From Anaerolineae bacterium (GTDB lineage: Bacteria; Chloroflexota; Anaerolineae; Anaerolineales; E44-bin32), in the NCBI GenBank assembly GCA_030605795.1, contig JAUWHR010000066.1, forward strand, positions 1 to 35,295: DNA of 35,295 bases, in the 5' to 3' direction. The notes under the pieces are model-generated. The model saw only the letters and a program-made list of their open reading frames with translations, did no database searches and had not been told where the DNA came from. A program made the position numbers and the translations under genes. Shown here in pieces: positions 9,976 to 26,719 of the stretch (positions within the stretch are counted from its first letter, which is position 1; each line of letters begins with the position of its first letter).

Positions 9976-10010
9976 GATCGCCCCCTCATCTGCAGGACGA
10001 GGAGGCGATC
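9976..10010 (-). terminator. T-box-controlled terminator (or sequestering) hairpin
   Basis: GATCGCCTCCTC (9999-10010) pairs with GAGGGGGCGATC (9976-9987) over 12 bp with one G-U pair and an 11-base loop. It shares bases with the antiterminator, so the two are mutually exclusive. The downstream sequence is TTAATAGC, with only two U residues before AAU. That is a poor U tract, so termination may be weak. The serS ribosome site begins only 9 bases after the stem. Confidence 0.75.
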
Positions 10011-10261
10011 GTGGTGCCACCTGCTTTCGCCGCTCCCCATCGGAGCGGCCTCTTAGCGCTATAACGGGCGAACCCGGCCTCCCTTACGGCAGTTTCCTGC
10101 CCCTTCGAGGGCGACGGGCCCCGCATTGGGGCCGGCGGAGAGGATTCCCCCCGCTCCCTCACCGTCTCTCACCAGTCGGCGGCTCTCTGAAAGAAGGAGG
10201 TTGGGGTAGTATGCTCCGCGCACGCCTTTCATTGGCACATACACAGTGCCCCTAAATTGTG
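9976..10261 (-). promoter_or_regulatory. T-box riboswitch (tRNA-Ser sensing) leader of serS
   Basis: Read on the minus strand, Stem I has a basal helix GCGGAG/CTCCGC (10214-10219 with 10135-10140) and an upper helix CCCC/GGGG (10203-10206 with 10149-10152). They enclose an internal loop whose 3' side reads GGAATCCT. UCC at 10142-10144 is the specifier, a serine codon. A Stem III hairpin is at 10029-10049. The antiterminator is GCAGG-[UGGCACC]-ACGA paired with UCGU-CCUGC (10009-10024 with 9992-10000). UGGC in the bulge complements the GCCA end of tRNA-Ser (discriminator G). A competing terminator hairpin uses 9976-10010. Uncharged tRNA-Ser should stabilise the antiterminator and raise serS expression. 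Only the distal Stem I details were not resolved. Confidence 0.93.
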
Positions 10262-10267
10262 GTTTTG

Positions 10268-10295
10268 ATTATATGGGCTGAGCCGGCGAAGTCAA
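10268..10295 (-). promoter_or_regulatory. Promoter of the serS T-box transcript
   Basis: On the minus strand TTGACT (10290-10295) and a perfect TATAAT (10268-10273) are separated by 16 bases. Transcription would start near 10261, exactly where the T-box leader structures begin, giving a leader of about 305 bases. Confidence 0.8.
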
Positions 10296-10325
10296 GCCTA
10301 ATTTTCACCAGGTTCCCTAAGAGCT

Positions 10326-10346
10326 TGAAGCTCGCGGTGAGCTTCA
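10326..10346 (-). terminator. Hairpin just after xdhC
   Basis: TGAAGCTC (10326-10333) and GAGCTTCA (10339-10346) form an 8-bp stem with a 5-base loop, starting 12 bases past the xdhC stop and before the serS promoter. The following minus-strand sequence (AGCTCTTAG) is only mildly T-rich, so it is a weak candidate terminator insulating the T-box unit. Confidence 0.4.
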
Positions 10347-10358
10347 GTTGGAATGGGG

Positions 10359-11438
10359 CTAAAACGAAGATGTTCCACTGCGCACAGCAACAATCTGCGC
10401 CATAACAGCCAGAGCAATCTCCGCGGGCGTTCTGGCGCCAATGTCCAGGCCAATCGGTCCGTGCAGACGGTTGAGGTCCGCCTCAGACAGACCTCCAGCA
10501 AGCAACCGCTGGCGTCGAAGCTCTTGCGTCTTGCGACTGCCGAGCGCACCCACGTAGAACACAGGACTCTGCAGAGCGATCTTCAGCGCCGGGTCATCCA
10601 CTTTGGGATCGTGGGTCAACGTCGAGACAGCGGTCGTGCTTGTTAGTCCGACTTCCGCAAACGCCTTCTCCGGCCATTCTTGGATCAACCGATCGACATT
10701 CGGGAATCTTACTTTGCTAGCAAACGCTCGGCGCGGGTCAACAATCACGGTGCGGTAACCGAGCAGGCCAGCGATCTGGGTAAGCTTCATAGCAATGTGC
10801 ACCCCCCCGACGGCAATTAAGGTCGGCGGAGGCTGGATCAATTCAAGAAAAACCTCGATAGCATCATCCGTCTTTGACTCCCCTTCTGTCGCTCCTTCAA
10901 CACCACGAGAGCTGATAGTAAGCCGGCAGGATGCTCCAGCTACCAGCACACCTCGGGCTTCTTCGGCTGCCTCCAACTCCCATTCGTCACCGGACTCCAC
11001 CACCATCTTTCCGTCATCGAACAGCAAAAATTGATGACCTATCAGATCCACCGGACCCCTCACACACGTCACTACTACCAATGTGCGTTCTGCAATCAGC
11101 GCAGATCGCAAATAGTCATACAAAGCTCGATCAAGCGGCTGGACAAACACCTCAATCGTACCCCCGCATGCCAACCCAACCTCCCAGGCGCGGTCATCTG
11201 CCACACCAAAATGAAGCAACTGCGGTTGACCGGTTTCTAGCACCTCGACGCCCGTCTCAACCACCGCGCCCTCCACACAACCTCCGCTTACAGATCCCGC
11301 GAACATGCCGTCGGGCGTTATCGCCATCTTGGCTCCCACACCACGCGGCGCCGAGCCCCACGTTTGCACCACAGTCGCCAGGGCCACGTCCTTTTTTCCC
11401 ATAAGCCACCGGTCAATATCGGGGATTATGTCTCGCAT
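10359..11438 (-). CDS. XdhC/CoxI-family protein (molybdoenzyme maturation)
   Basis: 359 residues from ATG 11438, which has a perfect GGAGGAATC spacing; the frame is open further upstream to 11570 without a better site. The N-terminal XdhC_CoxI domain shows WGSAPRGVGAKMAI, GSVSGGCVEGAVVE and GLACGGTIEVFVQP. The C-terminal Rossmann domain carries LIAVGGVHIAMKL, a VDPRRAFA segment and YVGALGSRKT. XdhC binds molybdenum cofactor and helps its sulfuration and insertion into xanthine-dehydrogenase or CO-dehydrogenase type enzymes. No such enzyme is in the window, so its client is elsewhere. It is 176 bp downstream of ecfT on the same strand and could be read with the ECF operon. A short hairpin (GCGTT...) lies in that gap. 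Confidence 0.92.
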   Translation of the reverse strand: MRDIIPDIDRWLMGKKDVALATVVQTWGSAPRGVGAKMAITPDGMFAGSVSGGCVEGAVVETGVEVLETGQPQLLHFGVADDRAWEVGLACGGTIEVFVQPLDRALYDYLRSALIAERTLVVVTCVRGPVDLIGHQFLLFDDGKMVVESGDEWELEAAEEARGVLVAGASCRLTISSRGVEGATEGESKTDDAIEVFLELIQPPPTLIAVGGVHIAMKLTQIAGLLGYRTVIVDPRRAFASKVRFPNVDRLIQEWPEKAFAEVGLTSTTAVSTLTHDPKVDDPALKIALQSPVFYVGALGSRKTQELRRQRLLAGGLSEADLNRLHGPIGLDIGARTPAEIALAVMAQIVAVRSGTSSF

Positions 11439-11614
11439 GATTCCTCCAAAGGAGTGGGAGTCCATAATCGCGGGGCGCAACGACGGAATATTTCCGGCGT
11501 ATCGGTCTTGACAGAACTTCCCACAATTCCTAGGCTCACGGTAAGCTCGGGCCAAACCAACACTAGACACTCCATAGATATCGGTCGCGTTCTAACGCAA
11601 CGCGCAGGATTCAC

Positions 11615-12334
11615 CTAGCGAACCAATATCAATGCCAGCAGAGAACTGAGACCCACCGTCAGGATCAACCAATCAAATGCTCCTATCTCTAAGGGAATAA
11701 TGCGACTTCTATCAGGAGAAAAGGCCCGAGCCTCTGCAGAAAGCACTACCTCATCCGCGCGACACAAAGCATTGCCTATAATATTAACCAGCAGCAACCG
11801 AAGTCCACGCCATCGCTGCCGACGTAGCCCTCCTTTCATCCGCAAGCTGCGCCACGCGTTCAAACTCGACTGCCGTAGAAAAGGGAGTAGATTCACCGCC
11901 ACACCCATCGAGAAACCGAGGCCCTCCAATCCAAAGCGCTCCAGCAATCCAGCCACCTCCGCAATATCCACAGAATTGGAGAAGCCCTCCACGGCCACCA
12001 ATACCACCACGGCGCGCAGAACCATCTGTAGCCCAATCAGTAGACCTTCAGACGATACCGCTAATCCCCACAAATTCCAATCAAGCTCGCCCACCCAGAA
12101 AATATTAGCGACGATCAGGAACCCGAACAGCAGTATCCATCGTCGTCGAAATGGCACGCGTAGGGCTGCCGGGTGGAGTAACACGGCAACTCCCAACCAG
12201 GTACCCACCGCGAGGGGTATCCAATTAGGGGGCGCAATCAGGAGCAGACTGATCGACCAAAAGAAGACCACGAGTCGACCCATAGTCCCAACAAGCCGTC
12301 TCACTGGTTCCGCCGATCTTCCCTCGGTGCTCAT
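11615..12334 (-). CDS. ecfT: ECF transporter T component (EcfT/CbiQ family)
   Basis: 239 residues with about 5 membrane segments. The two cytoplasmic coupling motifs of EcfT proteins are visible: AWRSLRMKGG and, about 35 residues later, the SAEARAF motif (an Ala-Arg-x type signature). They dock into the ATPase subunits. Its ATG overlaps the S-component stop by 4 bases (ATGA, 12331-12334). In energy-coupling-factor transporters EcfT joins the ATPases to the substrate-binding S component. Confidence 0.88.
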   Translation of the reverse strand: MSTEGRSAEPVRRLVGTMGRLVVFFWSISLLLIAPPNWIPLAVGTWLGVAVLLHPAALRVPFRRRWILLFGFLIVANIFWVGELDWNLWGLAVSSEGLLIGLQMVLRAVVVLVAVEGFSNSVDIAEVAGLLERFGLEGLGFSMGVAVNLLPFLRQSSLNAWRSLRMKGGLRRQRWRGLRLLLVNIIGNALCRADEVVLSAEARAFSPDRSRIIPLEIGAFDWLILTVGLSSLLALILVR

Positions 12335-12924
12335 CTCTCAGGTCTACCCAGCCTGGCGTATACGCTGCGCCCTACGCTCCAGGCCAACAACCCCGCGGCA
12401 GCACCAATGCCTAAGCGCAAACCTATCAAGGCCAAGATCAGCCATAGTACAGCCGAAGGGTCTATTCCGAGCACCTGGGATCCCTGATCGAGGGTTCGCA
12501 ACCACACGGTGAGTATCCCACTTCCCATGATCAACCCGTGCATTACAAACGGATGAACGAAAGTCCACAGCACGCCAACTGCTCCAGCCATGGTAAACGC
12601 GCCTTGAGAGGGTTTTCTCAAAGCACTCAATACCACCTCGGCCAAGAGTGCTTCAATTACAATCCCCAACAATGGCCAAATAACCACCCCTCCCAGGCTG
12701 AACAATTTGAGCAGTGCGGCGATAAGACCGATGAAAAGCGTCGCTCCTGGCCGGCATACGAACAGACGGCCAATCATGGCAATCGCCAGACCTATCGCCG
12801 TCAGGATTACCCCAGCCATGGGTACTTTCATTACATGGAGAATGGAACCGAAGGACAACTCGACTGCCCCCCACAGAGCGCCAAACACACCAAGGGTAAC
12901 CAGTTCGCGTGTGCTAAATTTCAT
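12331..12924 (-). CDS. ECF transporter S component (substrate unknown)
   Basis: 197 residues from ATG 12924, preceded by GGAGG 7 bases upstream; a TTG two codons earlier is less likely because ATG makes the same ATGA overlap seen throughout the operon. There are about 5-6 hydrophobic segments. The N terminus (FSTRELVTLGVFGALWGAVEL) has the typical S-component opening with small residues in helix 1. The sequence did not match a vitamin-specific S family that I recognise (ThiT, RibU, BioY, CbiM, PdxU and so on). Position between the ATPase and EcfT genes makes the S-component assignment firm even though the ligand is unknown. Confidence 0.8.
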   Translation of the reverse strand: MKFSTRELVTLGVFGALWGAVELSFGSILHVMKVPMAGVILTAIGLAIAMIGRLFVCRPGATLFIGLIAALLKLFSLGGVVIWPLLGIVIEALLAEVVLSALRKPSQGAFTMAGAVGVLWTFVHPFVMHGLIMGSGILTVWLRTLDQGSQVLGIDPSAVLWLILALIGLRLGIGAAAGLLAWSVGRSVYARLGRPER

Positions 12925-14408
12925 CCCCAAGCCTCCCTCGCCTCCACATGGGCATAAGTCTTCTCCTGTTCACTTCGCCTAAACCGACCCTCTAAAGCGA
13001 TCTTACCTTCTTCCATCACGATAACACGCTGAGCATACCGGCACACGAGTTTGTAGTCATGGGTAATGAGCAATATCGTAGTCCCCTTCTGGCTGAGTGT
13101 TGTCAGGAAGTCCATCAACCGCTGCAGATGCCCCCAGTCCTGCCCAATCGTTGGCTCATCGAGCATCAGCAATCTGGGACACAACGAAAGACAAGCTGCC
13201 ATGGCTGTACGCTGCTGCTGGCCGCCCGAGAGCGCCATCAGACGCCTCGACCGAAGATCCACAAGGTCAGCCTCCGCCAAAATCTGTACATGTCGCTCAG
13301 GTTCAAATAGACCGTAGTTCCGCGGTCCAAAGGCGACTTCCTCATTAACCGATTCCGTGAACAGTTGATCTAACGGGTTCTGGAAGAGCAAAGAAATGTC
13401 CAACCCAGGTTGCTTCAGTTCTCCGCCATTGAAACATATCGTTCCCTCCAACGGCTTGAGCAGACCGGCAGCTACCAGAGCCAAGGTTGACTTCCCCGCC
13501 CCGTTATCGCCCACCAGTGCCACGAACTCACCTGGATACAACGTAAGATTTATGTCCTGGATCACCCTTCGACCGCCGTACCCAGCCGAAACCCCTCGCA
13601 TTTCAATCAACGCTGTCAAATCACCACGATGTCGGCTATCCGCGATCACGAGTGACCGCCACGGTTCTGTCGGGTAATCCATTAGCCTACGCAAACCAAG
13701 GTTGCGCCATAAATGCTGATCGGACAAGATGGCGGTCGGCTCGCCATCCGCGATGACGCGCCCCTCGGCCATAAGCAGCACCCGATCAGCCAGTCGAGCG
13801 CCTTCCACCAAACGATGTTCGATCAGCACGATCGTCACCCCATGGCGTTCACGCAATGCTTGAAGCGTCGCCGTCACCTGACGGATTCCATGCATATCGA
13901 GTGAGGCAAATGGCTCATCCAGTACCAGCACCCGAGGTCTCATCGCCAGCGCGGCGGCGATGGCGACCTGCTGCTTCTCGCCGCCAGACAACTCCGACGG
14001 CCTGCGGTCCATGCTTCCCATCAGGTTGGTTGCCGACAGGGCCCAGCTTACCCGTTCCCGGACCTCATCCTTGCTCAAACCAAGATTGCGCGGGCCGAAC
14101 GCGACCTCATCTTCCACCCGTAGATGAAAGAGTTGCGAGGATGGATTCTGAAAGACCGCGCCTACTCGCTGGGCAAGCTCGGCGATCGTATGCTCGCGCA
14201 CGTCCATACCCGCTACATGTACTGCGCCCTCAAATTGCGCCGATATGGCATGAGGGATAAGGCCGGTTAGCACCCGAGCCAGGGTGCTCTTCCCGCAACC
14301 TGAAGGACCAGTCACCAGCACGCACTGTCCGGTCGGGATGTCCAGGGTCACGTCCTGCAAGGCGAACCCGGAATCATAGCGCACGGTCAAGTTGCGCACC
14401 CTGATCAT
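12921..14408 (-). CDS. ECF transporter ATPase, two ABC domains in one chain (EcfA-EcfA' fusion)
   Basis: 495 residues from ATG 14408, which overlaps the upstream stop as ATGA. There are two complete ABC ATPase modules. Module 1 has Walker A GPSGCGKST (34-42), signature LSGGEKQQ (140-147) and Walker B VLVLDEP (160-166). Module 2 has Walker A GDNGAGKST (300-308), signature LSGGQQQ (from 393) and Walker B LLMLDEP (413-419). Both Q loops read FQNP, as is usual in ECF and cobalt-type ATPases. In many bacteria these are separate proteins EcfA1 and EcfA2; here one polypeptide provides both. The protein powers uptake through the T and S components encoded directly downstream. Confidence 0.95.
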   Translation of the reverse strand: MIRVRNLTVRYDSGFALQDVTLDIPTGQCVLVTGPSGCGKSTLARVLTGLIPHAISAQFEGAVHVAGMDVREHTIAELAQRVGAVFQNPSSQLFHLRVEDEVAFGPRNLGLSKDEVRERVSWALSATNLMGSMDRRPSELSGGEKQQVAIAAALAMRPRVLVLDEPFASLDMHGIRQVTATLQALRERHGVTIVLIEHRLVEGARLADRVLLMAEGRVIADGEPTAILSDQHLWRNLGLRRLMDYPTEPWRSLVIADSRHRGDLTALIEMRGVSAGYGGRRVIQDINLTLYPGEFVALVGDNGAGKSTLALVAAGLLKPLEGTICFNGGELKQPGLDISLLFQNPLDQLFTESVNEEVAFGPRNYGLFEPERHVQILAEADLVDLRSRRLMALSGGQQQRTAMAACLSLCPRLLMLDEPTIGQDWGHLQRLMDFLTTLSQKGTTILLITHDYKLVCRYAQRVIVMEEGKIALEGRFRRSEQEKTYAHVEAREAWG

Positions 14409-14926
14409 CGGTACTTTTCCCCTTCTGCCCCCGCGGACACGGAACCCTGGTTCAAGTTCACCACCCCCGCCCATGGCCACCGGTCCAGGGCCTGCGACAA
14501 CAACTCGGGTCGAACGACGACATAGACCTGCGGAACCTGCTGGGCGTCGATCAAGCGCAGTCCCTCCTCTAAGCCCTCCCCCAGAATGAATTCGAGGGGA
14601 CCTATTTCGTCGATAATTACCATATCACAGGGTGGGAGATCGCGTAGCACCTTGTTGGCCCATTCCAGGGTCTCTGGATTAAATTGCCAACATGGAGTCA
14701 CTGATTTGCGGGAGGTCATAGTTTGAGGAAACGCCAGCTGACGGCTCTCCCCAGATATGAGGTCAAGAAGATCGATTCTAACTTTGCGTCCTTCCTCCAT
14801 AATGGAAAGGGATAGTAGGCCTCCGACGGTCATTCCCTCACCTCGAGCCTGCTCCGCAAGCTTGAAACACCAGGTGCTTTTTCCTGAGCCGCTCGGGCCG
14901 GTGATAAGGGTAAGTTTGGTGGTCAT
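14405..14926 (-). CDS. THEP1-like P-loop NTPase of the ECF operon
   Basis: 173 residues. Walker A is GPSGSGKST (10-18). The Walker B region VIIDEIGPLEF is the THEP1 hallmark (DEIGxxE). THEP1-type proteins are nucleoside triphosphatases; related DUF2478 proteins occur near molybdenum transport genes. The stop overlaps the ATPase gene start by 4 bases, so it is the first gene of a tightly coupled four-gene operon. No ribosome site is visible before ATG 14926. A TAGAAT at 14932-14937 lies only 5 bases before the ATG, so the transcript may be leaderless; this is tentative. Its job with the transporter is unknown: processing an imported nucleotide-like cofactor is one possibility. Confidence 0.82.
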   Translation of the reverse strand: MTTKLTLITGPSGSGKSTWCFKLAEQARGEGMTVGGLLSLSIMEEGRKVRIDLLDLISGESRQLAFPQTMTSRKSVTPCWQFNPETLEWANKVLRDLPPCDMVIIDEIGPLEFILGEGLEEGLRLIDAQQVPQVYVVVRPELLSQALDRWPWAGVVNLNQGSVSAGAEGEKYR

Positions 14927-14934
14927 ATTATGTA

Positions 14935-15136
14935 ATTCTACAGTAACTACTCAGGTATCGTCTGGAAAGAGGCAAGCCTACTCACGAAGCGATTTTTGGA
15001 TGTCATTGCGAGTCCTTCGGTACCTCAGGGCCTTCGGCTCCGCGAAGCAATCTCCTGCCTTCAACATGTAATCAACGGTGGAGATTGCTTCGTCACTTCG
15101 TTCCTCGCAATGACAGACTGAGTAGTTACATTCTAC
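14935..15136. mobile_element. MITE-like palindromic element with 7-bp flanking duplication
   Basis: Terminal inverted repeats GTAACTACTCAG (14943-14954) and CTGAGTAGTTAC (15118-15129) match over 12 of 12 bases. Inside, TGTCATTGCGAG (15001-15012) pairs with CTCGCAATGACA (15104-15115), and CGAAGCAATCTCC (15043-15055) with GGAGATTGCTTCG (15080-15092), both perfectly. The direct repeat ATTCTAC flanks the element at 14935-14941 and 15130-15136, as expected for a target-site duplication. No transposase is encoded. TGTCATTGCGAG...GAAGCAATCTC palindromes are common dispersed repeats in several bacterial phyla. The element lies directly upstream of the THEP1/ECF operon and may supply part of its promoter. 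Confidence 0.82.
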
Positions 15137-15274
15137 GATGAATTCCTTATTCGAATGGGAGATTACAAATTCAGTATTCCATATCTAGTCATCGGTAAGA
15201 AAATACCTGCAGGCTGACGTTCGCTTGCAGATTACACAATGGCAAACCCATCCATGACTGAGCGAGCCACACGA

Positions 15275-15329
15275 GCGAGGAATCCCTATGATTCCACTAG
15301 TTAGAAGAACCATCATAGGAATTCCTCGC
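15275..15329. repeat. Second imperfect palindromic repeat
   Basis: GCGAGGAATCCCTATGAT (15275-15292) and ATCATAGGAATTCCTCGC (15312-15329) are inverted copies with one mismatch and a 19-base spacer. The right side continues as CGCAACGCGGCATGGAATGACA, which resembles the outer arm of TGTCATTCC-type palindromes related to the MITE at 14943. It is probably a degenerate relative. The rest of 15137-15404 contains no convincing gene. Confidence 0.6.
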
Positions 15330-15404
15330 CGCAACGCGGCATGGAATGACATTATAAAGAAGGGGATTCCACACAACTCGCCGGGAGCTTTTATGGGATC
15401 CACA

Positions 15405-15429
15405 TACCCGGCGCTGATCGCGCCGGGTA
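15405..15429 (-). terminator. Hairpin after nifJ
   Basis: TACCCGGCGC (15405-15414) and GCGCCGGGTA (15420-15429) form a perfect 10-bp GC-rich stem with a 5-base loop, beginning 23 bases past the nifJ stop. The minus-strand sequence after it has no strong T run (TGTGGATCCCATAAAAG), so it may act as an mRNA 3'-end stabiliser rather than a strong intrinsic terminator. Confidence 0.5.
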
Positions 15430-15451
15430 CATAGAACGGGCGATGTACATC

Positions 15452-18400
15452 TTAGATGTCGAGATTCGCCATCTGCTCGTAGAATTTCCAGCGGGTGATC
15501 ACATCCTGCCGGATGGCCTCCAGCAGCTTTTTCGCTCGCTCGGGTTTCGTTTGGCGCAGGGAGCGGAAACGGTTCTGCTTGTACATGAACTCCTCAATGC
15601 TTTCCGTCGGAGCCTTCGAGTCCAGTTGCAGCGGGTTTTTACCTTGATCCGCCAGCATTGGGTTATAGCGATAAAGCGGCCAGAAACCGCTGGCAACGGC
15701 GTTCTTGTGCAGGTCTGTAGCGGTGGTCATGTCGATGCCGTGAGCGATGCAGTGGCTGTAGGCAATAATCAGCGATGGGCCTTTATAAGCCTCTGCTTCT
15801 CTGAAGGCTTTCACTAATTGGGTCATATTAGCGCCATAGGCCACCTGAGCCACGTAGATATTGCCGTAGGTCATGGTGATGGCGCCCAAATCCTTCTTAG
15901 GCATGTCCTTGCCCGCGGCGGCGAACTTGGCGACTGCCGCTCGAGGTGTGGCCTTTGAAGCCTGCCCACCGGTGTTGGAGTAGACGCCGGTATCGAGCAG
16001 TAGCACGTTGACATCACGTCCAGAAGCCAGCACGTGGTCCAATCCACCATAGCCGATATCGTAGCCCCAGCCATCGCCTCCGATGACCCACACCGACCTG
16101 GGCACCAGGAATTCAATCACGCTAAGCAGACGGCGCGCCATAGTATCATCGCGCTTCTCCAAGATTGACTTCAATTCCTCCACCCTCACCCGCTGCGTCT
16201 CGATCGCCTCCTGTGTGCTCAGATCAGCGGTCTTGATCGCCTCGACCAACTCGGCTTTTCCATTCAATGGGACTTTGTCAAGCAACTCTTTCGCGAAGGC
16301 GGTAAGTTTATCCGCCGTCAACCGCATACCCATGCCGAATTCGGCGTTGTCCTCGAAGAGCGAGTTCGACCAGGCCGGGCCACGACCATCAAAGCGTGGG
16401 ACATAGGGTGTAGTAGGCAGGTTGCCACCGAAGATCGAGGAGCAGCCGGTGGCGTTGGCGATAATCATGCGGTCGCCAAAGAGCTGAGTAAGCAACTTGA
16501 CATATGGGGTCTCACCACAGCCGGCGCAGGCGCCAGAGAATTCGAACATCGTGGGTAGAAACTGCGACCCTTTGACGGTGAAACGGTTGAAAAGGGCCGG
16601 ATCAGGATCAGGGATCGATAGAAAGTAATCCCAATTAACTACCTCCTGCTCCCGAATCGGCGGCTGTGGCGCCATGTTGATCGCCTTGCGGTCGGTCTTC
16701 TCTCCCTGCTCATCCTTGACGTAGGACGGGCAGATGTGCACGCAGGCTCCACAGCCGGTGCAGTCCTCGGGCGCCACCTGGAGAGTGTACATCATACCCT
16801 CCAAGCCGCGACCCTTGGCCGGTACGGCTTTCCAGCCGTCAGGCGCATCCCCATTGGCATATGAGGCGTCGTATATCTTAGGTCTGATCGCGGCATGCGG
16901 GCAGACAAAAGCGCATTGGTTGCATTGGATGCAAACCTCCGTCTCCCACACAGGGATTTCCAAGGCGACGTTGCGCTTCTCGAAGCGGGTTGTGCCGACC
17001 GGGTAGGTGCCGTCGTTGGGCAAGGCAGAGACAGGTAATCGGTCTCCCCGTAATGCGATCATCTCCGCCGTGACCTCTTTCACAAACTCTGGGGCGTGAT
17101 CCGGCACCGGGGGTCGGATGTGGATGGTGCTGGTAGCCTTCTCGGGCAGCCGCACCTCATGTATCCGCTCACCGGCAAGATGGGCAGCTTTGATGTTCAT
17201 GTCTACCACAGCCTTGCCCTTACTGCCATAGGTGTCCTCTACCGCCAATTCCATCATCTTCAGAGCCCGCTCCTCCGCTAGCACGCCCGAGATGGCGAAG
17301 AAAGCCGTCTGCATGATGACGTTGATGTGTCCACCAAGACCCAGTGATCTCGCCAACGAGTATGCATCGATGACATAGAACTTGGCCTGCTTTTCAATCA
17401 GCGCCTGCTGCACCTCGAAGGGCAAGTGATCCCAGACCTCATCCGGCAGGTAGGGACTATTGAGCAGAAAGGTGCCCCCCGGCTTGAGATGGCTGAGGAT
17501 GTCGAAGCGCTCTAAGAAAGCAAACGCATGGACGGCCAAGAACTCTGATTGGTCGATCAGATAGGTGCTGCGGATCGGGTGCGGACTGAAGCGCAGGTGA
17601 GAGATGGTCAGCGAACCCGACTTCTTCGCTTCATACACAAAGTAGCCTTGAGCGTAGTAATCGGTGGCCTTGCCAATGATCTTGATCGAGTTCTTGTTTG
17701 CCCCGACGGTACCATCACCGCCAAGGCCGAAGAACAGCGCTCGATGCTCACCCTCAGGCGCCGAGGAGAAAACGTCGTCCCATGGCAGACTGGTGTCGGT
17801 GAGATCATCGATTATGCCGACGGTGAAGTGGTTCTTCGGCTGCTCGGAAGCCAAGTTATCGAGCACCGACTTGGCCATGCCGGGGTTGAACTCCCTGGAG
17901 CCAAGCCCGTATCGCCCGCCAACCACCAGCGGCATGGCACTTCGCTCGATGCGACCTTCAACCATCGCTTCGGCGATAGCGTTCTGCACATCCAGATACA
18001 GCGGCTCGCCCGCTGCGCCCGGCTCCTTGGTACGATCGAGCACCGCGATCACTCGTACGGTCTCCGGCAAGGTGTCCACAAATGCCGCGCTGTTAAAGGG
18101 ACGGTAGAGGCGAACCTTGACCAGTCCCACCTTCTCCCCCTGGCCGACCAGGTATTCGACCACCTCATGCATCGTGTCGGCACCCGAGCCCATCATCACC
18201 GCCACCAGCTCGGCGTCGGGGGCGCCGACGTAGTCGAAGAGGTGGTACTCTCGGCCGACGATCTTGGCAAAGCGATCCATTGCCCCCTGTACGATCCCAG
18301 GGGTCTTTAGATAGTAGGGGTTGACTGTCTCGCGGGCGGCAAAGAATACATCCGGATTCTGGGCTGTGCCCCGGATGGCGGGCCGGTCAGGGGAAAGACC

Positions 18401-19033
18401 CCGCATGCGGTGGGCGATTACCCATTCCTCATCAATCATCGCCCGCATGTCATCATAGGTCAACTCTTCGATCTTCTGGATCTCGTTGGAGCTGCGGAAA
18501 CCATCGAAGAAATGGAGGAAGGGGACGCGCGCTTCCAGCGTAGAAGCCTGGGCAATCAAAGCAAGATCCATGACCTCCTGGATGTTATTGGAAGCTATCA
18601 TCCCCCAGCCAGTGGAGCGGGCGGTCATCACATCGCTGTGGTCGCCAAAGATCGACAAGGCCTGAGCCGCCACTGAACGAGCGGCGATGTGGAACACCGC
18701 CGGCGTCAACTCCCCGGCGATTTTGAACATGTTGGGAAGCATCAGCAACAAGCCCTGGGAGGCGGTGAAGGTGGTTGTCAGGGCGCCTGTCGTCAGGGCG
18801 CCGTGGACTGCCCCCGCTGCGCCGCCTTCGGACTGCATCTCAGTGACATCTGGAATAGTCCCCCAAATGTTCGGTTCGCCGCGCGCAGCCTTCTCATCGG
18901 CGATTTCACCCATCAGCGACGATGGGGTAATGGGATAGATGGCGATCACCTCGTTGGTGGCATAGCCCACGTGGGCTGCGGCCGTGTTGCCGTCATACGC
19001 CACCAACTTGCGCTTGGTTTTTTTCTTTGCCAT
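15452..19033 (-). CDS. nifJ: Pyruvate:ferredoxin (flavodoxin) oxidoreductase, single-chain
   Basis: 1193 residues, the usual homodimeric PFOR length. ATG 19033 follows AAAGGAG. Domain order is complete: pyrimidine-binding domain I (from VAYDGNTAAAHVGYATNEVIAIYPITPSS), domains II-III, then a two-cluster ferredoxin domain with CIQCNQCAFVC (C701, C704, C707, C711) and CTGCGACVHIC (C758, C761, C764, C768). The C-terminal TPP domain has CAGCGE (C836, C839) for the proximal 4Fe-4S cluster and GDGWGYDIGYGG near residue 987. SHCIAHG supplies the last cluster cysteine. It oxidises pyruvate to acetyl-CoA and CO2, reducing ferredoxin or flavodoxin, with CoA and TPP, in the cytosol. It marks an anaerobic or microaerobic lifestyle. 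It stands alone, with hairpins on both sides. Confidence 0.98.
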   Translation of the reverse strand: MAKKKTKRKLVAYDGNTAAAHVGYATNEVIAIYPITPSSLMGEIADEKAARGEPNIWGTIPDVTEMQSEGGAAGAVHGALTTGALTTTFTASQGLLLMLPNMFKIAGELTPAVFHIAARSVAAQALSIFGDHSDVMTARSTGWGMIASNNIQEVMDLALIAQASTLEARVPFLHFFDGFRSSNEIQKIEELTYDDMRAMIDEEWVIAHRMRGLSPDRPAIRGTAQNPDVFFAARETVNPYYLKTPGIVQGAMDRFAKIVGREYHLFDYVGAPDAELVAVMMGSGADTMHEVVEYLVGQGEKVGLVKVRLYRPFNSAAFVDTLPETVRVIAVLDRTKEPGAAGEPLYLDVQNAIAEAMVEGRIERSAMPLVVGGRYGLGSREFNPGMAKSVLDNLASEQPKNHFTVGIIDDLTDTSLPWDDVFSSAPEGEHRALFFGLGGDGTVGANKNSIKIIGKATDYYAQGYFVYEAKKSGSLTISHLRFSPHPIRSTYLIDQSEFLAVHAFAFLERFDILSHLKPGGTFLLNSPYLPDEVWDHLPFEVQQALIEKQAKFYVIDAYSLARSLGLGGHINVIMQTAFFAISGVLAEERALKMMELAVEDTYGSKGKAVVDMNIKAAHLAGERIHEVRLPEKATSTIHIRPPVPDHAPEFVKEVTAEMIALRGDRLPVSALPNDGTYPVGTTRFEKRNVALEIPVWETEVCIQCNQCAFVCPHAAIRPKIYDASYANGDAPDGWKAVPAKGRGLEGMMYTLQVAPEDCTGCGACVHICPSYVKDEQGEKTDRKAINMAPQPPIREQEVVNWDYFLSIPDPDPALFNRFTVKGSQFLPTMFEFSGACAGCGETPYVKLLTQLFGDRMIIANATGCSSIFGGNLPTTPYVPRFDGRGPAWSNSLFEDNAEFGMGMRLTADKLTAFAKELLDKVPLNGKAELVEAIKTADLSTQEAIETQRVRVEELKSILEKRDDTMARRLLSVIEFLVPRSVWVIGGDGWGYDIGYGGLDHVLASGRDVNVLLLDTGVYSNTGGQASKATPRAAVAKFAAAGKDMPKKDLGAITMTYGNIYVAQVAYGANMTQLVKAFREAEAYKGPSLIIAYSHCIAHGIDMTTATDLHKNAVASGFWPLYRYNPMLADQGKNPLQLDSKAPTESIEEFMYKQNRFRSLRQTKPERAKKLLEAIRQDVITRWKFYEQMANLDI

Positions 19034-19432
19034 AAACCGCTCCTTTCACTTCGCTAATATAAGCAGTCATACCTACGCGCCTAAGCGCGCAAATTATCAT
19101 AAGGGAATCAACCATTAAGTCTAGAACGCTTTGCCCCACTGTAACAGTGTAAAAGAGCATTGTGAACCATGGTACACCTATCACTATTCCCTTGCTGCAC
19201 ATTCTTCTTTGCCATTAATCACCACTTATCGATCTTTAAGTGGTCATTATTTCCGATTTACCAACAACTTACATGGTTTTCATACTCCAGGAAACTAGGG
19301 TTTAAATCGCCAAAACGATTATCTCTTTGTAAAGCAGGGTTTGAGGATTAGGATCAAGATACGACATCAGTTGAGTTCATGATGATAGCAGATTATGGGG
19401 AGTTGCAATCTATCATACAAAGACGAGATGGG
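19034..19432. promoter_or_regulatory. Palindrome-rich upstream region of nifJ; no gene seen
   Basis: This 399-bp AT-richer stretch has no convincing coding frame. It contains three inverted repeats: CACTG-TAA-CAGTG (19137-19149); GTGAACCATGGTACAC (19162-19177), a 16-base palindrome with one mismatched pair; and ACCACTTA...TAAGTGGT (19221-19228 with 19237-19244), extendable to 12 bases with one mismatch. On the minus strand TAGACT and TATGAT, 16 bases apart and between about 19095 and 19125, form a possible nifJ promoter. The first two palindromes lie just upstream of it, a sensible position for operators. Regulation by redox or oxygen is inference only. Confidence 0.45.
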
Positions 19433-19888
19433 TTAAATATTTTTACTACCCTCCATGTAGACCACCAGCCATCGTCCCAACAGGGGATATAGGAAGTCAC
19501 GTCCAGCCAGAATGCGGGAAGCACCCAGCAATCCAAACAAAAGGGTGAGGCCCCACCCTACCAGGATCATTCCCACCAATACACATCTCAGGGTCAAAAG
19601 ACCAGAAGGGAGGGCACCACCCAAACCATCAGGGAGACCACCCAACATCGTGCCATACAAGCCCCAGAACCCTAGTAGATACACCACCGAGAAGGCAGAG
19701 GGCATGGCTAGCTGGTAGATCAACGCCTGGAGCGCTTGAAAGTGGACGAACTTTGACCAATCACGCTGGGTGATCCAGATATGCAAAGGGACGATAAAAC
19801 CCAGAAAAGGGAGCAGCGCCCCGCTGTGGGCCACGGCTGCCAGGAGGCGCTCATCCTGGGAAGCCTGTTGTGCCGATGTAGACATCAT
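19433..19888 (-). CDS. DUF4870/Tic20-like small membrane protein
   Basis: 151 residues. Two adjacent ATG codons start at 19888, preceded by AGGAGGAA. The N-terminal motif (DERLLAAVAHSGALLPFLGFIVPLHIWITQRDWSKFVHFQALQALIYQL) is typical of DUF4870 membrane proteins: an amphipathic start, then W-x-x-F-V-H-F-Q-A-x-Q-A followed by 3-4 membrane helices. A Gly/Leu-rich loop separates the helices. Function is unknown for the family. Confidence 0.78.
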   Translation of the reverse strand: MMSTSAQQASQDERLLAAVAHSGALLPFLGFIVPLHIWITQRDWSKFVHFQALQALIYQLAMPSAFSVVYLLGFWGLYGTMLGGLPDGLGGALPSGLLTLRCVLVGMILVGWGLTLLFGLLGASRILAGRDFLYPLLGRWLVVYMEGSKNI

Positions 19889-20133
19889 TTCCTCCTAATA
19901 TATGAATAATGCACAAATAAACCTCGATTGTGTTAATTTATTGCATGTATACTGAGCAGTGTCATCACGTAGGTGTTTTCATTCAAAGACCACATGAAGA
20001 AAACCGATGTACAAAGACATATTCAGTATCATTTTTTTTCTCGGTATGTCAAATCAACAAAGGTTCGGTTCGTTCTATCGGCGAAAGAATTGACTAAGGG
20101 ATTCAAGCAACCAACCTCTTTCCTATAGACTCC

Positions 20134-24496: not shown

Positions 24497-26719
24497 CTAC
24501 CGTACTGTGATTCGGCCAGGGCCAGGTTGGGTGAACTGACCAATGTTCGCCACCAGGTCCACCCCTCGCTCTTCCAACGCTTCCAACAGCGCCTCCAGCC
24601 GCTCAGCAGGGACAGCTATGAGTAACCCGCCGGAGGTCTGAGCATCCGCCAAGAGAAGCTTCTGTGCCTGTGAGACGCCCTCACCCCAGATCATGTGTGG
24701 CTCAACATAAGCCAAGTTATCGCGGGTACCGCCCGGAATAACGTTGGCGCTAATAAAAGTCTCAGCTCCACTCATGATTGGCACCCGATCGGCATAGATT
24801 TCGGCATCCAACCCCGCGCCGGCGGTCATCTCCCTCAAGTGCCCTAACAAACCAAAACCGGTTACATCGGTGCAGGCCGATACGCCCACTTCTACCATCG
24901 CCTCAGCAGCCGCGCGGTTAAGGGTCGCCATCCACTTATTAACCTCTCGCTCCGTACCCTCATCCGCCAAGCCCCTTTTAACCGCCGTGACAATGATGCC
25001 TGTACCGATCGGTTTGGTGAGGACGATCTGATCACCGGGCTGGGCTGCGGCGTTGGTCACTACCTTATCGGGGTGCACGACTCCGGTCACCGCCATCCCA
25101 TACTTGGGCTCGGTGTCGTCCACTGTGTGGCCACCGATGATGCTCACCCCGGCTTCGGTGGCCTTGTCGAGCGCCCCCTGCAGAATACGCTCGAGCACCT
25201 TTAGGGGTAACCGGTTGATTGGAAAGCCAACGATATTTAACCCGAAGAGCGGCTTGGCGCCCATGGCGTAGATATCGCTTATCGAATTGGCGGCCGAGAT
25301 CGCGCCGAAATCATATGGATCATCGGCGATCGGGGTGAAAAAATCAACTGTTTCCACAATTGCCAGGTCATCGCTAATCTGATAGACCGCAGCATCATCC
25401 GATGTTGAGATATCGACTAATACCGCGGGGTCATTCGGCTTGGGAAAATTAGCCAACACCTGCTCCAGCGCCTGCGGCCGCAGCTTACAGGCACATCCCA
25501 TGCCGTGCGTGTAGCGGGTCAACTTGATCTCCTCGTCGTCGACCAGTACCGGAGTGATCGACGGACCAATCGGTTGCATTCTCCGCACAGCAGCTGCGAC
25601 CACCTCAACCGCCCGATCCACCTCCTCGGTGGTGGTCATTCTACCGACCGAGAAACGAATCGTCCCCATGGCGTACTCCAACGGGACGTCCATCGCCTCC
25701 AAGACTGGTGAAACATCGATGCTCTCGGCATGGCATGCAGCTCCCGCCGAGGCAGCCACTTGCTCACCAATCTCCGATAGCAGTGTGTTAGCTTCGATAG
25801 AGCGAAAGCTGACATTTAGCGTGTTGGGCAGGCGTTCGTCCGGGTGGCCATTCAATCTCAGCCGGTCAGGGGTGTCCAATTCGCGGTTCAATCCCTCCCA
25901 TAGTCGGTCGCGCATCGCGCGCATGTGCGCCATCACCTGCTCTAGATTCCGCCCGGCTACTTCAGCCGCCTTCCCCAGGCCGACGATTTCCAATACATTT
26001 TCGGTCCCAGCCCGGCGGTCAGCCTCGTGGTCAGCGCCATGCACGAACTTAGTCAGCCTGATGCCAGACCGAACGTAGAGCGCGCCGACCCCTTTGGGGG
26101 CATACAACTTATGCCCTGCCACCGAGAGCAGATCAACTCCGAGATCTTCCACGCTGACCGGGATCTTACCCAGCGACTGTGCCGCGTCGGTGAGCATCAG
26201 CGCACCGCGACGGTGAGCGATAGCCGCGATCTCAGAGATTCGTTGGATCGTGCCGACCTCGTTGTTGGAGTGCATAACAGCCACTAGAATGGTCTCCGGT
26301 GTAAGGGCCTGCTCGACATCCGCCGGGTCCACCATCCCATATTCGTCAACCGGCAATACAGTGAGGCGGTAACCCTGACGCTCCAGGTAGCGACAGGGCT
26401 CTATCACCGCCGGGTGTTCAACGGCCGAGGTGATGATGTGAGCTCCACGTTCGCGGTAGGCGATAGCTACGCCCTTAATGGCCATATTGTTGGCCTCAGT
26501 ACCGCCGCTAGTGAATACGATTTCGGTGGGTGAGCAGTCTAACAGCGCAGCCACTTGCCCCCGGGCGTTCTCCACCGCCAGCCTGGCTTGCACGCCATAG
26601 GGATGCGCGCTCGACGGATTGCCGAAGATGTCGTAGAGATAAGGCCTCATGGCTTCAGCCACACGGGGGTCGATCGGGGTAGTGGCGTTGTAGTCGAGGT
26701 AAATCGGTTCTGTTTTCAT
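24497..26719 (-). CDS. Cysteine desulfurase (NifS/IscS-like) fused to selenide, water dikinase (SelD)
   Basis: 740 residues. Part 1 (1 to about 380) is a PLP-dependent cysteine desulfurase: YLDYNATTPIDP start, PLP lysine K204 in AGHKLYAPKG and persulfide cysteine C329 in SAGAACHAE. Part 2 (about 390-740) is SelD: HGMGCACKLRP holds the catalytic cysteine C409 (Sec or Cys in the family), K412 is the conserved lysine, and glycine-rich segments such as ISDIYAMGAKPLFGLNIVGFP follow. NifS-type enzymes can mobilise selenium from selenocysteine or cysteine-derived pools; SelD then makes selenophosphate from selenide and ATP. Joining them would channel selenium directly. No selA, selB or tRNA-Sec is in the window, so whether the product serves selenocysteine, selenouridine or a Se-cofactor is open. 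The short 387-bp upstream gap has no gene. Confidence 0.95.
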   Translation of the reverse strand: MKTEPIYLDYNATTPIDPRVAEAMRPYLYDIFGNPSSAHPYGVQARLAVENARGQVAALLDCSPTEIVFTSGGTEANNMAIKGVAIAYRERGAHIITSAVEHPAVIEPCRYLERQGYRLTVLPVDEYGMVDPADVEQALTPETILVAVMHSNNEVGTIQRISEIAAIAHRRGALMLTDAAQSLGKIPVSVEDLGVDLLSVAGHKLYAPKGVGALYVRSGIRLTKFVHGADHEADRRAGTENVLEIVGLGKAAEVAGRNLEQVMAHMRAMRDRLWEGLNRELDTPDRLRLNGHPDERLPNTLNVSFRSIEANTLLSEIGEQVAASAGAACHAESIDVSPVLEAMDVPLEYAMGTIRFSVGRMTTTEEVDRAVEVVAAAVRRMQPIGPSITPVLVDDEEIKLTRYTHGMGCACKLRPQALEQVLANFPKPNDPAVLVDISTSDDAAVYQISDDLAIVETVDFFTPIADDPYDFGAISAANSISDIYAMGAKPLFGLNIVGFPINRLPLKVLERILQGALDKATEAGVSIIGGHTVDDTEPKYGMAVTGVVHPDKVVTNAAAQPGDQIVLTKPIGTGIIVTAVKRGLADEGTEREVNKWMATLNRAAAEAMVEVGVSACTDVTGFGLLGHLREMTAGAGLDAEIYADRVPIMSGAETFISANVIPGGTRDNLAYVEPHMIWGEGVSQAQKLLLADAQTSGGLLIAVPAERLEALLEALEERGVDLVANIGQFTQPGPGRITVR

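Follow-up and report, generated by a model that had tools for sequence, protein, structure and literature searches.

A THEP1-like NTPase encoded with a predicted group I ECF transporter in Anaerolineae and its very probable link to the molybdenum-cofactor economy

Closest described systems

YkoEDC, the ECF transporter for HMP/thiamine, combines a dedicated S component, a double ATPase and a T component in a group I layout, and it is among the described systems closest to an operon of an Anaerolineae bacterium (GenBank assembly GCA_030605795.1, contig JAUWHR010000066.1, positions 1 to 35,295; this whole stretch of 35,295 nt is called the window below), whose S component also has its closest fold there. 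The operon differs from YkoEDC in that it gives no sequence match to a named family, has no TPP riboswitch (none was found in the window or at any tested locus by Rfam search), stands in a molybdenum-cofactor context and includes an additional NTPase. The latter resembles THEP1 of the NTPase_1 family in its Walker A motif, its DExG Walker B motif with catalytic glutamate and its size (PMC1079890), and hydrolysis is predicted for it; it differs in being built into a transporter operon and, in Deltaproteobacteria, in being fused to the T component. THEP1 itself is RecA-like in fold and shows a basic cleft next to the gamma-phosphate, and its nearest structural relative was a cobalamin adenosyltransferase; it was described as an ASCE NTPase by authors who argue against a kinase and give no physiological function (PMC1079890).

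Relatives of the operon share with the Moco/Tuco riboswitch regulons the same RNA family placed before transport and cofactor genes, which in the accessible part of the source include ModABC and tungstate transporters and no ECF system (Regulski 2008, PMC2408646); the window copy differs in lacking the RNA. ModABC, TupABC, WtpABC and MOT1 belong to the same cofactor pathway and to protein families different from the ECF set, and genomes carrying the ECF set mostly lack ModABC, yet retain TupABC, WtpABC or MOT1. The periplasmic pterin-binding PruR proteins share fold and size with a lipoprotein of related operons, for which pterin binding is putative; the window operon encodes no such lipoprotein. 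A literature search, with most subscription papers and all preprints outside its scope, gave no report of an ECF system tied to molybdate, tungstate, the Moco riboswitch or THEP1. Bacterial importers of molybdopterin or Moco are not known to us.

The operon in the window and its flanks

The operon lies on the minus strand and consists of genes for the THEP1-like P-loop NTPase (14405-14926; 173 aa), the double ECF ATPase (12921-14408; 495 aa), the S component (12331-12924; 197 aa) and the T component (11615-12334; 239 aa), in this order. All three junctions, read directly from the sequence, are exact ATGA overlaps (14405-14408, 12921-12924 and 12331-12334, minus strand), so that the four genes and three overlaps given in the preliminary description were found exactly at their positions. 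A single ATGA junction is frequent in bacterial operons, and three consecutive ones are therefore weak evidence by themselves.

The NTPase matched NTPase_1 (PF03266) with 71.4 bits against a Pfam cut-off of 23.9, and also DUF2478 with 26 bits. Its Walker A motif (GPSGSGKST) and Walker B motif (IIDEIGPLE; DExG with the catalytic Glu) are both kept in relatives. The score against the NCBIfam equivalog NF010248 (57.6 bits) was below the cut-off of 156, which marks the window protein as a relative rather than as that equivalog. The double ATPase is an EcfA-EcfA' fusion with two ABC_tran domains (NCBIfam TIGR04521, 380 bits, and TIGR04520, 373 bits, both above cut-off), and the T component belongs to the CbiQ family (PF02361; 43 bits, Pfam cut-off 25). 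Neither ModA nor ModB was matched among the genes of the operon in Pfam or NCBIfam. By the fold of its S component, its CbiQ-type T component and its two-domain ATPase, the operon encodes a group I ECF transporter, whose predicted activity is the uptake of a micronutrient at the expense of ATP.

The S component could be assigned to no named family: Pfam gave only matches under cut-off (Trep_Strep, 24.3; ABC_cobalt, PF09819, 20.6 vs 25.2 bits), NCBIfam gave none, and a sequence search against the PDB found no match. The AF2 model (pLDDT 91.5, pTM 0.86) has seven helices, and its best Foldseek match was the ECF S-component 5edl (TM 0.64, prob 1.00, E 5e-3, 24% identity), followed by RibU. We take 5edl to be YkoE, the S protein of the HMP transporter. 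The protein has a confident ECF S fold, and the lack of any profile match over cut-off bears out the earlier view that it matches no known vitamin family. Residues E22, K73, E91 and E96 are conserved. One of the cargoes already known for vitamin-type importers, such as HMP (the thiamine precursor carried by YkoEDC), would agree with the closest fold, the sub-threshold ABC_cobalt similarity and the double-fusion ATPase; we consider it highly improbable, as the Foldseek E-value is only 5e-3 at 24% identity, no thiamine gene was seen adjoining the operon, and the tested loci show no TPP riboswitch as opposed to a Moco riboswitch at 26 of 47.

Next after the T gene on the same strand, after a gap of about 176 nt, lies an XdhC-family molybdoenzyme maturation gene (10359-11438; PF13478, 136 bits; PF02625, 95 bits), which likely starts at the ATG at 11438, preceded by GGAGG, while the listed reading frame opens at a GTG at 11570. 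At the other end, inverted-repeat search and BLAST identified a repeated element of 187 nt (14943-15129, minus strand) with 12-nt terminal inverted repeats GTAACTACTCAG, which ends 17 nt ahead of the NTPase start. This element gave 27 BLAST matches, itself included, in the genome of the window, where over 20 other copies, complete or incomplete, are scattered. The remaining leader (15130-15451, minus strand), in which no Moco riboswitch was found, extends up to a 2-oxoacid oxidoreductase gene (15452-19033); a hairpin follows directly after that gene, which probably forms a separate unit from the operon. A search with the Moco riboswitch model RF01055 found none in positions 10000-20000 of the window up to E 5, and none in the whole genome under stricter filters. 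A hidden Moco riboswitch in the leader was rejected as well, since none of the conserved motifs could be traced there. The repeated element occupies the place where relatives have the riboswitch; it may have displaced one or may merely sit where none ever was.

Two other features of the window were recorded. A T-box leader-like RNA (10000-10232, minus strand; 48.6 bits, gathering score 93, E 2e-8) lies upstream of a seryl-tRNA synthetase gene. A 740-aa reading frame (24497-26719, minus strand) appears, from reading of the sequence only, to join a cysteine desulfurase to a selenide,water dikinase (SelD).

Conservation and molybdenum-cofactor context of the operon family

Among 298 genomes of the class to which the window belongs, the S protein was found in 35 (referred to as carriers). 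A scan of named genomes showed that the family occurs in Anaerolineae and in genomes labelled Bacillota, Actinomycetales, Eisenbacteria, Deltaproteobacteria and Bacteroidetes, most of them metagenome-assembled, with organism names given by the depositors and single contigs possibly misbinned. Clostridiales, Mollicutes and Neomarinimicrobiota (L134, L137, L140) have weaker relatives of the S protein (E 1e-5 to 1e-8), which are encoded within xanthine dehydrogenase clusters, beside XdhC and an NTPase. The order NTPase, double ATPase, S and T recurs in many of the extended carrier loci, and it is found across Chloroflexota and in other phyla. The 4-nt NTPase/ATPase overlap is present in 22 of 31 related loci, in contrast to the other two overlaps, which are mostly not kept elsewhere (ATPase/S 8/47, S/T 6/32). 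In four deltaproteobacterial loci (L118, L122, L123, L128) the NTPase forms the C-terminal part of a fusion with the T component. At L125 it is joined to an HTH-PBP_like regulator, and genes for ATPase, S, T, a lipoprotein and a TonB receptor come next.

That the NTPase is a mere bystander, or a generic NTP hydrolase carried in the operon, would agree with 12 loci in which the operon lacks it and opens with a PadR regulator instead; we consider this distinctly unlikely in view of the conserved overlap, the fusions to the T component and to a regulator, and the presence of the NTPase gene near a second ECF system (L208; see below). The coupling of the NTPase to the uptake system, which had been proposed from the window alone, thus recurs in other genomes in gene order, in the NTPase/ATPase overlap and in gene fusions, and the link is well supported. 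Of the two outcomes that the preliminary description had set as refuting, a clear vitamin match of the S component and a missing NTPase link in related genomes, neither occurred.

An Rfam search found the Moco riboswitch RF01055 upstream of the gene set in 26 of the 47 loci tested, in nearly all cases ending a few to some tens of nt before the first operon gene; at L128 the distance is about 2 kb. In L051 it precedes MoeA-MobB-MobA-AA-S-T, the first gene being identified by its MoeA domain. The aptamer stem P1 has GGAG as its 3' strand, a sequence that looks like a ribosome site and stands about 6-12 nt ahead of the NTPase start in most riboswitch-bearing relatives. As this GGAG pairs with the invariant CUCC of the 5' strand, binding of Moco would be expected to hide the ribosome site of the NTPase gene, and the 4-nt overlap would pass translation on to the transporter genes. 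Translational control combined with coupling through overlaps would explain the tight packing of the genes, if we infer correctly.

TupABC and WtpABC also adjoin Moco aptamers in the same class. A P3 hairpin, scored with a rough script, was present in 25/28 ECF-linked, 8/12 TupB-linked and 1/5 WtpB-linked aptamers; as a test for molybdenum versus tungsten this stem leans to molybdenum, and it was dropped since aptamers of this class do not follow the published rule (PMC2408646) cleanly. Where the genome lacks this ECF set (L203, L204, L206, L207), FmdE-like genes, as judged by eye from their sequences, come first behind a Moco riboswitch, followed in some by MOT1-like or TauE-like membrane proteins. 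At another locus (L212, 1663-4056), a Moco riboswitch precedes a gene whose product contains two Peripla_BP_2 stretches and gives a sub-cut-off Oxidored_molyb match.

At many loci the operon is accompanied by genes for DmsABC-type enzymes, a TorD-type chaperone, MobB, MobA and FmdE, and also for MOT1, MoeA, MoaA and XdhC, where some labels (e.g. DmsA and MobB at loci without a Pfam search) rest on phmmer against labelled relatives. XdhC lies inside the operon in L057, L060 and L061, MOT1 in L070 and L060, and TonB receptors and HTH-PBP_like regulators are found among the neighbours of related operons. DMSO-reductase-type, XDH-type and AOR-type genes are adjoined alike. We conclude that the operon family very probably belongs to the molybdenum-cofactor economy, a link that the preliminary description had missed while being right about the NTPase and the S protein. 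The same holds with somewhat less assurance for the copy in the window, where XdhC is a neighbour and the riboswitch is missing; this copy may do the same job as its relatives.

An importer of a molybdoenzyme substrate, such as a purine, an aldehyde or a sulfoxide, would agree with the weak S relatives in the xanthine dehydrogenase clusters mentioned above. We regard this as very improbable, given that the three enzyme types have the cofactor alone in common and that AOR genes are missing altogether from two carriers (G127 and G252). On the latter ground, restriction of the operon to AOR enzymes was rejected too; overall, AOR-family genes are more numerous in carriers (mean 7.8 vs 3.5 in non-carriers).

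Candidate cargo and role of the NTPase

In the best reading, which is about as likely as not, the operon encodes a Moco-regulon importer with a dedicated NTPase, and the cargo is probably a molybdopterin-type pterin. In such a system, the group I ECF importer (S, T and fused A-A') and the cytosolic P-loop NTPase would together serve Moco supply. The S component would bind the cargo, possibly Moco, molybdopterin or a dephospho form, on the outside; a PruR-fold lipoprotein would often assist it, as would a TonB receptor in Gram-negative relatives. The NTPase, conceivably a kinase, a nucleotidyltransferase or a chaperone, may then act on the entering cargo or gate it, in a step that would precede MoeA, MobA/MobB or XdhC. 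We hypothesise, as had been suggested before, that it processes or senses the imported molecule; one idea that would fit is a transfer reaction onto a negatively charged cargo, or else its NTP-gated hand-over. A dedicated bacterial importer for Moco or a molybdopterin-type pterin, with the NTPase processing the cargo on entry, is put forward as a tentative proposal, possible rather than probable. If the reading is true, bacteria may take up Moco or its building blocks by this operon, which joins the Moco riboswitch, cofactor uptake and a THEP1-family NTPase across several phyla, each of them directly testable.

A small lipoprotein is encoded between S and T, or adjoining them, in 19 loci; many loci lack it, as does the window operon. 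Its model shows the PruR fold over its whole length (TM 0.69/0.75 to 7kom) and also resembles the Moco domain of sulfite oxidases; a sequence search against the PDB found sulfite dehydrogenase only, so that the PruR match rests on the fold. The PruR structure 7rkb contains neopterin. For the lipoprotein of Deltaproteobacteria, a distant relationship is probable (hhalign probability 92). Downstream of RF01055, four carriers (G043, G059, G075, G100) encode a second ECF system in which a YkoE-type S domain (PF09819) is joined in one protein with one or two Oxidored_molyb domains, similar in kind to the lipoprotein, and followed by a double ATPase (L208, 2720-5595; L209, 4990-7959; L210, 9465-12506; L213, 951-3952). 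The PruR-fold lipoprotein, the S components fused to such domains and the TonB receptors indicate an organic, pterin-like cargo. Against this, the Moco cysteine is missing from the lipoproteins, whose ligand could be a different one.

The gene content of the 35 carriers was compared with that of 45 non-carriers, with shared ancestry uncorrected and genome completeness varying. ModB scored over cut-off in 1/35 carriers compared to 21/45 non-carriers (Fisher p 7e-6), and in 1/33 compared to 13/27 outside the order to which the window belongs. This near-exclusion of ModABC would also be explained by an ECF-type molybdate/tungstate importer, for an oxyanion or a metal chelate, that replaces ModABC and uses the NTPase as a metallochaperone-like hand-over helper. 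Such an importer, the main alternative if a rather unlikely one, would also suit the TupABC and WtpABC genes adjoining Moco aptamers in the same class, the HTH-PBP_like regulator adjoining the deltaproteobacterial operon, and four carriers with no ModB, TupB, WtpB or MOT1 (G065, G116, G127 and the window's own genome, G000), one of which is 98% complete. However, TupB is as frequent in carriers (18/35 vs 23/45), for which reason replacement of tungstate transporters was rejected, and WtpB (9/35 vs 3/45) and MOT1 (12/35 vs 4/45) are commoner in them; where MOT1 lies in the same operon (L070, L060), molybdate import by the ECF system would be redundant. The PruR-fold lipoprotein and TonB receptor suit a bulkier organic cargo, and to our knowledge there is no ECF S protein for an oxyanion. 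A molybdate cargo would make this the first oxyanion transporter of the ECF type known to us and would help to explain the many Anaerolineae that do without ModABC.

The molybdopterin-type cargo has to be weighed against the carriers' own synthesis. MoaA or MoaC is present in 32/35 carriers, so that few need an external cofactor, and cofactor auxotrophy was rejected as the operon's general reason. The salvage unit suggested in the preliminary description is thus a possible role which, most carriers making the cofactor themselves, would add to synthesis in most species and not replace it. In five genomes without an S gene of this family (G164, G243, G253, G263, G038; 97-99% complete), xanthine-dehydrogenase-family genes were found without a MoaA or MoaC match. 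Three carriers (G043, G075, G100; 89-91% complete) have many Mo/W enzyme genes, and MoaA, MoaC and MoeA were not detected in them; they would live on imported cofactor if import of Moco or a related pterin were true. They make up three of the four carriers showing the second ECF system compared to none of the 31 others (p 6e-4), a system that was sought in only some carriers.
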